From positions 1 to 5,154 of the forward strand of contig CAMBCD010000214.1 in NCBI GenBank assembly GCA_945863085.1: a DNA stretch of 5,154 nucleotides, given 5' to 3'. Below, piece after piece: positions 2 through 5,154 of this stretch. The notes under the pieces are model-generated. The model searched no databases. It was given only the letters and a program-made list of their open reading frames with translations, and was not told where the DNA came from. The first letter of the stretch is position 1, and each line of letters starts with the position of its first letter. Source of the stretch: Bordetella parapertussis. GTDB lineage: Bacteria > Pseudomonadota > Gammaproteobacteria > Burkholderiales > SG8-41. The translations under genes and the position numbers were made by a program.

Positions 2-409
2 TCTTTCGAGCCCGAGGAGCTGTTCGGTACGAAGCTGCGCGCGTTGCTGCAGCGACGCGCGAGCCGCGACCTGTTCGATTTGCATCAGGGACTGGAGCAA
101 CTTCCGCTGGCCCCGGAAAAAGTCATCGCATGCTTTGACCACTATCTGGCACTGGAAGGCAAGCCGATCACGCGCGCGATGGCAGAGCAGCGCATGCTTG
201 AAAAGCTCACACGGAGCCTGACCGAAGACATCACTCCGTTGCTGCCAGTGGGGATTCAATTTGGAGAACTGGATGCGATCCATGCCTTCGAGCGGGTTTG
301 GATAAAGCTGATCGCGAGGATGGGCGGGGAGGGGTGGAAGCTCGCGGAATCGGTGCTCGAAGAATTGCGTGAAAAACGATTTCCGGGGCTTCTGACGTCG
401 AGGGATTAG
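2..409 (+). CDS. AbiEii/AbiGii-family nucleotidyltransferase toxin, C-terminal part (5' end outside window)
   Basis: The frame is open from the window edge, so this is the last 135 residues or so of a longer protein; the internal TTG at 44 is not its start. The visible peptide begins with SFEPEELFGTKLRALLQRR and continues ASRDLFDL. This matches the conserved block of the AbiEii/AbiGii nucleotidyltransferase family, in which a Lys-x-Arg-Ala-Leu stretch is followed by the Arg-Asp-Leu-(Phe/Tyr)-Asp-Leu motif. The catalytic GS...D motif would lie upstream and is not seen. Known members are toxins of type IV toxin-antitoxin and abortive-infection systems that transfer nucleotides to cellular targets, usually encoded just downstream of an AbiEi-like antitoxin with a winged-helix domain; that partner would be left of the window. 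The stop is 41 bp before the ATG of the helicase gene on the same strand, so the two are probably co-transcribed. The exact target is unknown. Confidence 0.82.
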   Translation, partial: SFEPEELFGTKLRALLQRRASRDLFDLHQGLEQLPLAPEKVIACFDHYLALEGKPITRAMAEQRMLEKLTRSLTEDITPLLPVGIQFGELDAIHAFERVWIKLIARMGGEGWKLAESVLEELREKRFPGLLTSRD

Positions 410-450
410 TAGCGGCGTGCGTAATTATATGGACGACTTGATTGCTGGTT

Positions 451-2850
451 ATGGAGCCCATGGTTGAGCGCGATCCATCGGCGGAGTTAAAGGCCGAAAA
501 CGCCCGGCTCATCGCGCTGCTGGATGCGAACGGCATTCAATGGCGCATGCAGCAGCCAGAGCGCTCATCGCCAGCGTCAGCGCCGGAGCCCTCACGGCTT
601 TCCACCGACGAGAAGGTGGCGCTATTTCGCCGGTTGTTCCGCGGGCGCACGGATGTTTACCCTATTCGATGGGAGGGCAAGACTACGACCAAGTCCGGTT
701 ACTCACCGGCCTGCGCCAACGAATGGCGTGCCGGTGTCTGCGAAAAACCGCGCATCAAATGCGGGGATTGTAGTAACCGAATGTTGATTCCGCTGTCCGA
801 CTCGGTCATCTTCGACCATCTGGCCGGCGAGCATACAGTTGGCGTCTATCCCCTGCTGGAGGACGACACTTGCTATTTCCTCGCCATCGATTTCGACGAA
901 GCCGAGTGGCGAGAGGACGCCCGCGCCTTCGTGCAGTCGTGTAGTGAACTTGGCGTGCCTGTTGCTCTCGAGATTTCGCGCTCCGGCAAAGGGGCGCATG
1001 CCTGGGTGTTCTTCGCTGGCAGGGTCTCGGCCCGCGATGCTCGTCGCCTCGGCACGGCCATCATCAGTCACACCTGTTCGCGAACCCGGCAATTGAAGTT
1101 GGAGTCTTACGACCGCCTGTTTCCAAATCAGGACACGATGCCCAAGGGCGGCTTTGGCAACCTGATCGCATTGCCCCTGCAGAAGGTGCCTCGTGAGAAC
1201 GGTTATAGCGTTTTCGTTGATGCGGAATTGCACCCCTACCACGACCAGTGGGCGTTCTTGGCGTCCATCCATCTGATGGCACCGCACGACATCGAGCCGA
1301 TCATCCTGCGCGCGACGGGCAGGGCGCATCCACTGGATGTCACTTTCATCGACGAAGAAGACTTGGCTACGCCGTGGAAGCGTTCGGCCCCGCCCACGAA
1401 GCAGCTGCCGGGGACAATGCCGAAGTCACTAACCGTGACGCTGAGCAATCTCATCTACTTCGAGAAGGCTCAGTTGCCGCAGTCCCTGGCGAACCGTCTG
1501 ATCCGCCTCGCAGCGTTTCAGAACCCGGAGTTCTACAGGGCGCAGGCGATGCGGATGTCGGTGTGGGACAAACCACGCGTGATTGGTAACGCGGAAAACT
1601 ACCCACAGCACATTGGCCTGCTGCGCGGATGCCTGGATGCCGCAAAGGAACTGCTGAAAGACAACGGCATTGCCTGCGAACTGCGTGATGAGCGTTTTGG
1701 CGGAGAGCCGCTGGACGTCGCGTTTTTCGGTAAGCTGCGTACCGATCAGCAATCGGCTGTTGCCACAATGCTGAGCTATGACGCTGGCGTTCTATGCGCG
1801 CCTACCGCCTTCGGCAAGACGGTCGCGGCGGCAGCGATGATCGCCAAGCGTGGTGTAAACGCCCTGGTACTGGTGCATCGCACCGAGTTGCGCAAACAGT
1901 GGCAGGAGCGTCTGCAGGCCTTCCTCGGCGTCGGCAAGGGCACGATCGGCACAATCGGCGGCGGCAAAGCCAAGCCTACGGGGAAGATCGATATAGCTGT
2001 GATGCAGTCTCTGTCGCGGCAAGGCGAGGTGCACCCGCTGGTGGAGAACTACGGTCACGTCATCGTGGATGAGTGCCACCACGTCGGCGCGGTGTCATTC
2101 GACGCCATTCTGAAGCGCACCAAGGCGAAATACGTGCTCGGTCTGACCGCAACGCCGTTCCGCCGCGACGGCCAGCAACCGATCATCTTCATGCAGTGTG
2201 GCCCGATACGGCACACAGCAGCAAAACCTGCTGGTGCACCGCACGACCTCGAGGTCGTACCGTATTCGATGCATGCACGGATCGACCTCCCGACCGACGC
2301 GGGAATTCAGGATGTGTTCCGGCACCTCGCCAATGATCAGGCCCGCACGACCGCAATTTCCGACGAAATCGAGCACGCCTTCAGCCAAGGCCGCAAGGTG
2401 CTGGTGCTGACCGAGCGCACCGACCATCTCGATGCCATCTCGACGGCATTGGAGGGAAGGATTCCGCCGCCGTTCGTCCTGCACGGCCGGATGTCACGAA
2501 AGCAGCGCGCCGCGCTAATTGGGCAACTCGAGGCTTTGCCACCGGAAGCTCCGCGCGTACTGCTTGCGACCGGCAAGCTGGTAGGCGAGGGCTTCGACCA
2601 TCCTCCTCTGGACACCCTGGTTCTGGCGATGCCGGTGTCGTGGAAGGGAACCTTGCAGCAATACGCCGGGCGTCTCCACCGTGAGCATGCGACGAAGATT
2701 GATGTGCGGATCGTTGACTTCGTGGATACCGCCCATCCAGCCTTGCGACGGATGTGGGGCAAGCGCCAGCGTGGCTACCGCGCAATGGGTTATTTGATTC
2801 GCGAGGAAAGCGACGAACTGAAATCTTGCGCTATCGACAGTCCGCGATAG
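451..2850 (+). CDS. TOTE-type primase-helicase: AEP primase domain fused to SF2 DEAD/DEAH-box helicase
   Basis: About 799 residues counted from ATG 451. A TTG at 442, with GGA 8 bases upstream, would add three residues and cannot be excluded. Residues 11-28 (ELKAENARLIALLDANGI) look like the short coiled coil common at the start of this family. A Cys4 site follows (C88, C97, C104, C107, in the ACANEW...GVCEKP...KCGDC context). The AEP primase domain has the metal-binding D-F-D at 147-149 and SGKGAHAW at 178-185, whose His183 is the expected catalytic histidine, then FPNQD...GFGNLIALPLQ near 224-244. A linker holds the conserved NPEFYRAQAMR. The helicase has Walker A APTAFGKT (450-457), motif II DECHH (540-544), motif III TATP (566-569), motif V GEGFD (712-716) and motif VI QYAGRLHR (737-744). 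All key residues are present, so it should be active. Related proteins are assigned to TOTE biological-conflict systems; the role here is inferred from the family. No HKD nuclease insert is seen. The stop codon lies inside a CGATAG repeat. Confidence 0.93.
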   Translation: MEPMVERDPSAELKAENARLIALLDANGIQWRMQQPERSSPASAPEPSRLSTDEKVALFRRLFRGRTDVYPIRWEGKTTTKSGYSPACANEWRAGVCEKPRIKCGDCSNRMLIPLSDSVIFDHLAGEHTVGVYPLLEDDTCYFLAIDFDEAEWREDARAFVQSCSELGVPVALEISRSGKGAHAWVFFAGRVSARDARRLGTAIISHTCSRTRQLKLESYDRLFPNQDTMPKGGFGNLIALPLQKVPRENGYSVFVDAELHPYHDQWAFLASIHLMAPHDIEPIILRATGRAHPLDVTFIDEEDLATPWKRSAPPTKQLPGTMPKSLTVTLSNLIYFEKAQLPQSLANRLIRLAAFQNPEFYRAQAMRMSVWDKPRVIGNAENYPQHIGLLRGCLDAAKELLKDNGIACELRDERFGGEPLDVAFFGKLRTDQQSAVATMLSYDAGVLCAPTAFGKTVAAAAMIAKRGVNALVLVHRTELRKQWQERLQAFLGVGKGTIGTIGGGKAKPTGKIDIAVMQSLSRQGEVHPLVENYGHVIVDECHHVGAVSFDAILKRTKAKYVLGLTATPFRRDGQQPIIFMQCGPIRHTAAKPAGAPHDLEVVPYSMHARIDLPTDAGIQDVFRHLANDQARTTAISDEIEHAFSQGRKVLVLTERTDHLDAISTALEGRIPPPFVLHGRMSRKQRAALIGQLEALPPEAPRVLLATGKLVGEGFDHPPLDTLVLAMPVSWKGTLQQYAGRLHREHATKIDVRIVDFVDTAHPALRRMWGKRQRGYRAMGYLIREESDELKSCAIDSPR

Positions 2851-2976
2851 ATACTGAACGATCAGAGGACAAGAAAAACGCTGCCAGCGATAGGTAACGA
2901 TAGATCCCGACCGATCCTGAAGGGTTACATTCATCAGGCTGTCGATAGTCTGCGATACGTGCCGATAGATGCTGAA
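2835..2976 (+). repeat. Three degenerate repeat units of 10-bp-phased CGATAG hexamers, each ending in CTGAA
   Basis: Unit A (2835-2858) has CGACAG at 2835 and CGATAG at 2845, then CTGAA at 2854. Unit B (2888-2921) has CGATAG at 2888 and 2898, CGACCG at 2908, then CTGAA at 2917. Unit C (2943-2976) has CGATAG at 2943, CGATAC at 2953, CGATAG at 2963, then CTGAA at 2972. Within every unit the hexamers start 10 bp apart, and CTGAA always starts 9 bp after the last hexamer. An inverted CTATCG at 2831 overlaps unit A. Units A and C also share a longer imperfect match, with a 10-bp insertion in C. Ten-base phasing puts the hexamers on one face of the helix, as expected for cooperative protein binding. 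The proximity to the proposed att site suggests integrase or excisionase arm sites; that role is inference. Confidence 0.7.
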
Positions 2977-2995
2977 TGCTAATTTGGGGTATCAG

Positions 2996-3097
2996 ATGCA
3001 AATGACGGTAAATTTGACGGTAGAAATGCTACTCACCGAAAAAAGTTCTATACGTGACAACGGTTTATCGGTGCCGTTGATGATTGAATGGGAGTAA
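2996..3097 (+). CDS. Possible 33-residue small ORF ending in a GuaA-like IEWE tail
   Basis: ATG 2996 is preceded by GGGG (2986-2989) with a 6-base gap, a plausible ribosome binding site. The frame gives 33 residues starting MQMTVNLTVEMLLTEK and ending VPLMIEWE. The repeated MTVN/LTVE comes from the TGACGGTA direct repeat. The last four residues and stop equal the GMP synthase C-terminus, so the simplest explanation is a chance frame made of island-end sequence joined to the duplicated guaA tail at the att site. No known family was recognised. A real peptide is possible but unproven. Confidence 0.2.
   Translation: MQMTVNLTVEMLLTEKSSIRDNGLSVPLMIEWE
3003..3022 (+). repeat. Direct repeat TGACGGTA, two copies 12 bp apart
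   Basis: TGACGGTA occurs at 3003-3010 and 3015-3022, separated by AATT, in a locally AT-rich stretch about 60-80 bp from the proposed att core. Arm-type sites of tyrosine integrases are commonly short direct repeats at this sort of distance from the core, so this pair is a second candidate binding site distinct from the CGATAG units. The function is inferred from position only. Confidence 0.5.
3083..3097 (+). other. Candidate attachment site: duplicated 3' end of guaA at a genomic island boundary
   Basis: The bases ATTGAATGGGAGTAA encode Ile-Glu-Trp-Glu followed by a stop (the exact duplication may start a few bases either side of 3083). IEWE-stop is the conserved C-terminal end of GMP synthase; E. 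coli GuaA ends PPATIEWE. The sequence upstream does not continue as GuaA (SVPLM replaces the expected KPPAT-like residues), so only the last few codons are present. This is what integration of an island into the guaA 3' end leaves at its far end: the intact gene stays at the other junction and a short copy of its tail is kept here. GuaA 3' ends are a known hot spot for islands with tyrosine integrases, such as GIsul2. The genes that follow (yffB-like, tadA, YkuD) fit a guaA-downstream backbone. The intact guaA and integrase would lie outside the window. Confidence 0.6.
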
Positions 3098-3211
3098 TGT
3101 TTCGGAGGGCGGAGCAGGGGCCCCGCAAAACGGGGATGCGACCCCGGAGGAACGCGCCAGCGATCCTGAACAACGTGCGGTCAGCACAGGCACTGCTAAA
3201 AGGATTCTGAA
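3098..3211 (+). other. GC-rich intergenic stretch with small nested hairpin, no convincing gene
   Basis: This is the spacer between the proposed guaA tail and the yffB-like gene. CCCCG (3121-3125) and CGGGG (3131-3135) form a perfect 5-bp stem with a CAAAA loop. GGGG (3117-3120) can also pair with CCCC (3142-3145) around it. There is no T-run after the stem, so a classical intrinsic terminator is not supported. CGGAGG occurs twice (3103-3108 and 3145-3150). Two overlapping short frames stay open to about 3210-3215, but neither has a good ribosome binding site or recognisable similarity. It may be a structured leader of the downstream operon or simply spacer. Confidence 0.4.
3201..3204 (+). 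promoter_or_regulatory. Ribosome binding site AGGA supporting the TTG start of the yffB-like gene
   Basis: AGGA lies 7 bases before TTG 3212. No ATG or GTG lies near the family's usual N-terminus, and translation from this TTG gives MTITLYGIRNC, the normal beginning of ArsC/YffB proteins. The site therefore decides the start. Confidence 0.6.
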
Positions 3212-3565
3212 TTGACCATCACCCTGTACGGCATCCGCAATTGCGATACAGTCAAAAAAGCGCGCGGATGGCTGGATGCCAAGAAAATCGAATATGTCTT
3301 TCACGATTACAAAACCGCGGGCATTGACGCCGACCGCCTGCAGCTCTGGTGCAGGGAACTGGGCTGGGAAGCGCTGCTCAATCGTGCCGGCACCACCTTC
3401 CGCAAACTGCCTGATGCGGACAAACAAAGCCTCAATGAGCGCAAGGCCATTGCATTGATGCTGGCACAGCCGTCGATGATCAAACGGCCGGTGCTGGATC
3501 TCGGCAGACAGCGCCTGACCGGTTTCAAGGCCGAACTCTACGAGAACGCGTTAAACGCGGACTGA
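3212..3565 (+). CDS. yffB: ArsC/YffB-family thiol reductase (Spx/ArsC-like)
   Basis: The 117-residue protein has the usual length of the YffB branch of the ArsC/Spx thioredoxin-fold family. It opens with a beta strand and the active-site turn LYGIRNCDTVKKAR. Cys11 is the single cysteine in the N-terminal site, as in YffB, where a CxxC is absent. GTTFRKLP (60-67) and QPSMIKRPVL (86-95) are the other two conserved blocks and supply the expected basic residues Arg64 and Arg92. YffB-type proteins are thought to be glutathione-dependent thiol reductases; despite the automatic name, arsenate reduction is not established for them, and no other arsenic-resistance gene is present here. The start is TTG with AGGA 7 bases upstream. 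tadA follows after 6 bp, so it is probably the first gene of a three-gene operon. The protein is presumably cytosolic. The family is clear; the physiological substrate is not. Confidence 0.88.
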   Translation: MTITLYGIRNCDTVKKARGWLDAKKIEYVFHDYKTAGIDADRLQLWCRELGWEALLNRAGTTFRKLPDADKQSLNERKAIALMLAQPSMIKRPVLDLGRQRLTGFKAELYENALNAD

Positions 3566-4503
<938 letters not shown>

Positions 4504-4707: not shown

Positions 4708-5154
4708 ATGCGACTCAAAGACAAGGTAGCCATCATCACCGGTGCCGGCAGGGGCATCGGGCAAGCCACCGCCGTGAAGTTTGCGCGGGAAGGCGCCAGG
4801 GTCGTGGTCTGCGACCTCACCCCGGAGTGGATCGACCAGACCGTTGCCCTGTGCAAGGAAAGCGGCGCTGAGGCCATCGGCTGCATCGCGGATGTGCGCG
4901 ACATGAAATCACTCGATGCGATGGTCAAGACCACGCTCGACAAATGGGGTAGGGTGGACTGCCTGGTCAATAACGCCGGCATCGTGATGGACGCCCAGCT
5001 GAAGAACATGACCGAGGACCAGTTCGACAAGGTCATCGACATCAATCTCAAGGGGGTTTTCAACTGCACCAAGGCCGTGGTGCAAACCATGCTGAGCCAG
5101 GAATCAGGTGTGATCCTCAACGCGTCCTCGATCGTCGGCCTCTACGGCAATTTT
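4708..5154 (+). CDS. fabG: FabG-like short-chain dehydrogenase/reductase, N-terminal part (3' end outside window)
   Basis: The first 149 codons of a classical SDR of normal family spacing (about 245 residues expected) are present; the frame is open at the right edge. The Rossmann cofactor motif TGAGRGIG is at 11-18. ADV (61-63) carries the conserved Asp62 that contacts adenine, NNAG is at 88-91, and the structural Asn113 sits in DINLKG. The catalytic Ser of ASSIVG is about residue 141; the YxxxK motif would fall just beyond the edge. FabG reduces 3-oxoacyl-ACP to 3-hydroxyacyl-ACP; close relatives include acetoacetyl-CoA reductases and other alcohol dehydrogenases. Asp36, at the end of the second strand (VVVCDL), suggests NAD(H) rather than the NADPH preference of housekeeping FabG, so it may be a paralogue with another substrate. 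The start ATG has AAAGG 6 bases upstream and its own leader region. Family assignment is firm; the specific substrate is open. Confidence 0.85.
   Translation, partial: MRLKDKVAIITGAGRGIGQATAVKFAREGARVVVCDLTPEWIDQTVALCKESGAEAIGCIADVRDMKSLDAMVKTTLDKWGRVDCLVNNAGIVMDAQLKNMTEDQFDKVIDINLKGVFNCTKAVVQTMLSQESGVILNASSIVGLYGNF

Follow-up and report, generated by a model that had tools for sequence, protein, structure and literature searches.

In the accretion described for cis-mobilizable elements, integrase-free units bounded by attachment sites stand in tandem with integrase-bearing elements, an arrangement best known from ICE families of the Firmicutes. The 3' end of guaA is the site occupied by GIsul2, which has the core GAGTGGGA and a guaA-targeting integrase; according to the available portion of its description (PMC9376610), an internal third site (attLR) delimits an integrase-free CR2-sul2 unit that the integrase excises and inserts, and attR is the dominant cointegration site. 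ICERspD18B is conjugative, measures 28.5 kb and carries resistance genes and a P4-type integrase; the accessible part of a report that takes guaA to be a hot spot on the authority of Song et al. 2012 (PMC7775301) places it at the guaA 3' end, with the repeat ACAATNGAGTGGGAATNNTT. In similarly partial texts, defence island 13 of Stenotrophomonas maltophilia is flanked by guaA and pgrR (PMC11680222), and guaA serves for strain typing only (PMC13310844). The remark in a first-pass annotation of the present locus that guaA 3' ends are known integration hot spots is borne out by two of these sources (PMC9376610, PMC7775301).

We have analysed a stretch of DNA of 5,154 nt, referred to in its entirety as the window (Table 1), by comparison with relatives, for which genomes, contigs and loci are designated G, C and L. 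These comparisons make it very likely that positions 3083-3097 represent the attR of an element integrated site-specifically at the guaA 3' end by an integrase of the guaA-targeting family.

Table 1. Features of the window and the evidence for each
Feature	Position	Strand	Evidence and remarks
AbiEii, C-terminal 135 aa; type IV TA nucleotidyltransferase toxin, element cargo	2..409	+	Pfam AbiEii 3.5e-10; PADLOC AbiEii 3.3e-28
AEP-primase + SF2-helicase, Pfam AEP-TOTE type, 802 aa from first TTG; cargo	442..2850	+	AEP-TOTE 2.9e-101; ResIII 2.7e-22
Right terminus of the putative integrated element	2830..3082	+	Conserved in L009, G073, G183, G167 and G143
Six CGATAG/CTATCG motifs (five +, one -), probable integrase arm-type sites	2831..2968	+	Role predicted
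Paired TGACGGTA (3003, 3015)	3003..3022	+	Relatives have this motif at left ends too, close to the integrase
Predicted attachment-site core, guaA codons IEWE-stop (attR)	3083..3097	+	Pattern match and alignment to relatives
8-bp core GAATGGGA	3086-3093	+	Inside attR
Native guaA 3' flank, GC-rich repeat at about 3106-3163	3098..3211	+	84% over 82 bp (from 3083) to G003
ArsC/Spx-family protein (YffB-like), native	3212..3565	+	NF008107 135 bits, cut-off 121; among the matches listed, 84% identity to L001, 82% to L002, 68% to L009
TadA tRNA adenosine deaminase, native	3572..4027	+	NF008113 204 bits, cut-off 150
YkuD-domain protein, native	4024..4503	+	YkuD 2.9e-19; resembles ElsL yet is under the model cut-off (NF040925 168 bits, cut-off 270)
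SDR-family reductase, native, truncated at window edge	4708..5154	+	Family profile matches

A detached guaA 3' end and its flank

The sequence ATTGAATGGGAGTAA, on the + strand at 3083-3097, is the sole match within 3 mismatches in the window, and since at least one such match also occurs in 11 of 200 shuffles the 15-mer by itself is weak evidence. The seam is made firm by the 82 bp that run rightward from 3083, which align at 84% to the end of guaA in G003. In that genome (the source of L001) an intact guaA ends ATTGAGTGGGAGTAA, and the DNA that starts at its IEWE-stop matches window positions 3083-3163, GC-rich repeat included; the bases after the IEWE-stop of the window are therefore guaA 3' flank, and a chance match of IEWE-stop is rejected by this comparison. 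The guaA genes compared end KPPATIEWE or KPPGTIEWE, and in the window the preceding residues are VPLM, which are not GuaA-like, with no GuaA coding sequence there. The first-pass annotation had described exactly this, an IEWE-stop with no GuaA before it, placed at the point where accessory genes give way to housekeeping genes; VPLM and the G003 flank uphold the former, and the family matches on either side the latter. The GC-rich unit at 3106-3163 recurs in tandem behind guaA in G003, with a spacing of 108 bp.

The window core GAATGGGA agrees with the published GAGTGGGA at 7 of 8 positions, with GAA here and GAG in the consensus, and given this difference the attachment site of the window may be decayed. 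One copy of the core direct repeat (GAATGGGA) lies within the window, and the position of its counterpart falls outside. A search for Rfam families and tRNA genes gave none in the window, so an island at a tRNA site is ruled out here.

The native character of the right side was examined by scanning genome contigs with the ArsC-like protein, which matched at least 593 stretches, of which the best 80 loci were kept. The L002 contig starts within guaA (...KPPATIEWE-stop) and its arsC begins 14 bp past the stop; an upstream guaA is present in 9 further loci of the best 80, at distances from overlap with arsC (L028) to 4.6 kb (L064). The two genes are not always adjacent, being about 19 kb apart in G003, and no exact core was found in the sequence examined of that stretch (C28, L138), in which a KaiC-like reading frame was seen by eye. 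In L044 (5363-6001) guaA is followed by the core, a fragment of a guaA-type integrase (47% identity over residues 6-99) and then arsC, with 623 bp between guaA and arsC, and this arrangement is what remains of a previous insertion there. A separate observation concerns G002, in which the end of L081 and the start of L002 (C22 and C38) share an exact overlap of 149 bp and L081 halts exactly at ATCGAGTGGGA; perhaps the assembly forked at the core, with empty and occupied sites coexisting in the sample.

The element terminus, candidate arm sites and integrases of relatives

In another host (L009), the terminal sequence of the window stands at the start of a contig and is followed by the core and then by that host's own arsC. 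The match is 97% over 141 bp to window positions 2953-3093; 126 of 128 bases left of the core are identical, and behind the stop the ungapped identity is 13% over 60 bp. The L009 contig begins just 130 bp left of the core, short of the cargo region. In the same genome, G001, an intact guaA stops about 130 bp short of a contig end, and GAGTGGGA is found there both behind guaA and before arsC. A further terminus, in G073, matches at 89% over 192 bp. At the level of sequence, these comparisons show the seam, establish that the right side is native, and find the left side again at this site in a different host. The proposal that everything to the left is island and everything to the right native chromosome is supported by the comparisons with G003, L002 and L009/G001, and the relatives lacking the island that had been suggested for comparison have the native flank behind an intact guaA (G003) or guaA 14 bp before arsC (L002). 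Judged on relatives, an island boundary at 3083-3097 is thus supported.

The right-end pattern was surveyed in a sample of 399 genomes from the genome collection, of the same order as the genome of L009 and many of them at contig level. Exact CCRTTGATGATYGARTGGG occurs in 10 of these genomes and the reversed-pattern control in none (0/399); a BLAST search with 2970-3097 matched in 18 of the 399, about half of the matches being short and nine having E values of about 1e-9 or better. There are five CCRTTGATGATYGARTGGG sites in G143, four of them on one contig, and this assembly (6.8 Mb) could be mixed. At E 0.01, the element end (2830-3097) had no match in E. coli genomes or plasmids and 2830-3211 none in phages; the exact right-end pattern was absent from the viral contigs searched.

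When 14 right ends are aligned, TTGATG (TTAATG in G172) is followed by ATYGARTGGGA (GGGG in G073) and then by variable DNA, and left ends in relatives run from guaA...PPAT through the ATYGARTGGGA core into element DNA. The right-hand cores of G065 and G125 are preceded by bases other than TTGATG. All six copies of CGATAG/CTATCG in the window fall within 2831-2968, and in 300 shuffles, scored in steps of three positions, no 150-bp stretch had more than 2. Among 33 hand-picked core sites (the second core of L124 is one of those omitted), CGATAG is present within 300 bp on the left of the core at 20 of 23 element right ends, the exceptions being L009 (130 bp only), G358_C27 and G301, against 0 of 10 guaA ends; right of the core it is present at 2 of the 33. 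CTATCG lies right of the core at 11 of the 33 sites, among them the guaA copies that an integrase follows (G172, G320, G183, G358) and G398, and left of it at three (the window, G178 and G073); none was seen behind guaA in G001 (133 bp examined), G244, G065, G125 or G301. This distribution points to CGATAG/CTATCG as putative integrase arm sites.

A tyrosine integrase, which the first-pass annotation had expected behind an intact guaA, does lie directly behind guaA in the relatives G172, G320 and G183, and G358 has the beginning of one before the contig breaks off. In G167 an integrase lies behind a right-end core, and a search behind guaA gave no match in G398, G244, G386, G065, G125 or G301. 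Both integrases scanned have Arm-DNA-bind_3 and Phage_integrase domains, and we infer the class of the integrase that would have acted at the window from these relatives. A. baumannii ATCC 17978 has a plasmid of 148,955 bp on which an integrase, encoded next to an AlpA gene, matches the G172 protein at 55% identity over 93%; other plasmid integrases are closer to the G172 protein (70-71%). From strain and size, the ATCC 17978 plasmid would be pAB3, which carries GIsul2 according to the available portion of its description (PMC9376610).

The AbiE-helicase unit

The AbiEii of the window, truncated at the window edge, is 92.6% identical to residues 157-291 of AbiEii in G143, and the product of 442..2850 has 91% identity with its counterpart in the G143 array. 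Two cores of G143, at 33736 and 39871, have between them AbiEi, AbiEii, the helicase and a 386-aa protein. In G143, G244 and G320 exactly 70 bp separate the start of AbiEi from the first base of a core, and the distance is the same in G359, where one core base is changed, so the homologous segment is bounded on the left too. AbiEi and AbiEii are paired in G143, G320 and G359, the AbiEi of G244 is at a contig end, and in the window part of AbiEii is present alone, the position of AbiEi being outside. The right core of the unit lies within the window and the G143 homologue has cores on both sides; from the alignment with G143, the left core is predicted about 1.35 kb beyond the left edge of the window.

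The unit left ends of G143, G244 and G320 are without CTATCG arms and, given this absence, could be deletion products. Between core and AbiEi these three have an inverted repeat, CATATGCAAAAC...GTTTTGNNTATG, which is perhaps an AbiEi operator. Behind guaA, G065 and G125 have a copy of the helicase, whose match is in pieces, and another core follows about 6.1 kb farther along. The G172 integrase, a query for the guaA-integrase type only, had no match at 1e-10 in the G143 unit or in the G065 and G125 stretches. The element of the window may be one unit of an array, in which case guaA and an integrase need not adjoin it.

The 386-aa protein (L125 5991-7151; homologues in L200/G065 and L201/G125) accompanies the AEP-helicase gene in G143, G065 and G125; it has no Pfam, NCBIfam or PADLOC match, and its gene has no match within the window. 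Patatin-like and SMODS/DncV-like genes, resembling CBASS, follow the unit-ending core at L125 2327-5106 (G143 C45). At L188 (G301 C1:2650000-2664000), on a single contig of 4.25 Mb, guaA and a second core are 3.7 kb apart, with a transposase-like ORF between them by eye.

The AEP-helicase gene is present at E 1e-50 or better in 29 of the 399 genomes; its homologues match in 292 plasmid records, with a best identity of about 80%, and at least 7999 database proteins scored. Its surroundings were examined in 16 of the 29 genomes (15 by script, and G073). The helicase stretch bears a core in six of these, exact in G143, G320, G065 and G125 and differing by one base in G073 and G359. No exact core was found near the helicase in the other ten, several on short contigs (G326, G072, G127, G032, G245, G104, G254, G263, G355 and G183); one-mismatch cores in G127, G032, G245, G104 and G355 are without the TTGATG context and are taken for chance. 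With a core in just 6 of the 16, a guaA-linked site for all AEP-helicase genes is ruled out. TOTE stands for TPR, OB, TBP and Effector in the accessible text of PMC12458937. Among the six ORFs scanned in the window the AEP-TOTE/helicase protein stands alone, and because the TPR, OB and TBP parts are absent from these ORFs we do not file the element as a TOTE conflict system, though genes for these parts could be located beyond the window.

Origin of the seam and relation to known islands

We propose that a P4-type tyrosine integrase of the guaA-targeting family would join the attP of the element to the GARTGGGA core at the guaA 3' end (attB), with the crossover falling within ATYGARTGGGA; the element would supply the last codons of guaA, and the IEWE-stop codons so displaced would remain at the far end, before the native arsC-tadA-ykuD genes. 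A seam of this kind might in principle also come from a chance IEWE-stop string at a border made by an IS, by homologous recombination or by an assembly chimera, and the matches among the shuffles lean that way. We regard this as extremely improbable, since the right flank is homologous to a guaA 3' flank, the same seam is present in an independent assembly of another host (L009), and 10 of 399 genomes have this end, against none for the control pattern. A duplication of the native region that copied the guaA 3' end as a remnant of rearrangement, with no integration, would fit the variable distance between guaA and arsC (14 bp in L002, 623 bp in L044 and about 19 kb in G003), but the IEWE is preceded by a conserved terminus with arm-like motifs and by no GuaA coding sequence, and this account is highly improbable.

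There is more to be said for a classical single island resembling GIsul2 or an ICE, with its own integrase by guaA, in which the whole left side is one element and AbiE and the helicase are its last cargo, not a separate unit. A guaA with integrase and a right end are about 85 kb apart on one contig in G320, where the intervening stretch was read in part, and guaA, integrase and right end lie within 2.7 kb in G172. Nevertheless, the core 70 bp before AbiEi in four genomes bounds the homologous segment on its left, and in G065 and G125 the helicase segment is directly behind guaA with no match to the integrase query, so that we consider the single island unlikely, if well short of negligible. 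Our preferred reading is of an integrated element at guaA whose AbiE and AEP-helicase segment would be the right-most unit of an island, probably without an integrase of its own and moved in trans, as in G143. More tentatively, and with slightly less than even confidence, we suggest that the guaA 3' end in Betaproteobacteria-like hosts is a landing pad for stackable, integrase-free defence cassettes of AbiE and AEP-primase-helicase, with CBASS-like genes alongside in G143; each would be bounded by GARTGGGA cores, have arm sites at the right end only, and depend for its insertion in trans on guaA integrases, resident or visiting. If true, this would amount to an integron-like exchange of phage defences without an integron. 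On this comparison, the AbiE and AEP-primase-helicase genes would form a module of a mobile unit that is site-specific and has defined ends, and CCGTTGATG-ATYGARTGGGA provides a sequence handle for finding such cassettes.

The use of guaA as an island site with the core GAGTGGGA is already established, and the present element carries a defence-type cargo; literature titles and abstract openings, among which subscription journals are thinly covered, gave no description of an AbiE and AEP-helicase cassette at guaA. The varied defence genes behind guaA in island 13 of S. maltophilia, as far as the available text goes (PMC11680222), parallel those seen here, in another lineage. Like ICERspD18B in the part of its report at hand (PMC7775301), the present element is inserted at the guaA 3' end, whereas the window is without a conjugation gene. 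With GIsul2, in the portion of its description available (PMC9376610), it shares the junction with the guaA 3' end, the native flank lying right of 3083 and the element end left of it, and the AbiEi-AbiEii-helicase unit of G143, set between two cores with no guaA-integrase match, resembles CR2-sul2. It differs from GIsul2 in its AbiE and AEP-helicase cargo, its Betaproteobacteria-like hosts, its core GAATGGGA and a mobility that is predicted only, and the G172 integrase is 55% identical to that on the ATCC 17978 plasmid. The comparison suggests that the mobility of the integrase-free CR2-sul2 unit may extend to the spread of phage defence, through the predicted mobility and putative defence role of the present unit. 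With a putative att-bounded unit that would have no integrase, the arrangement would also be like that of cis-mobilizable elements.
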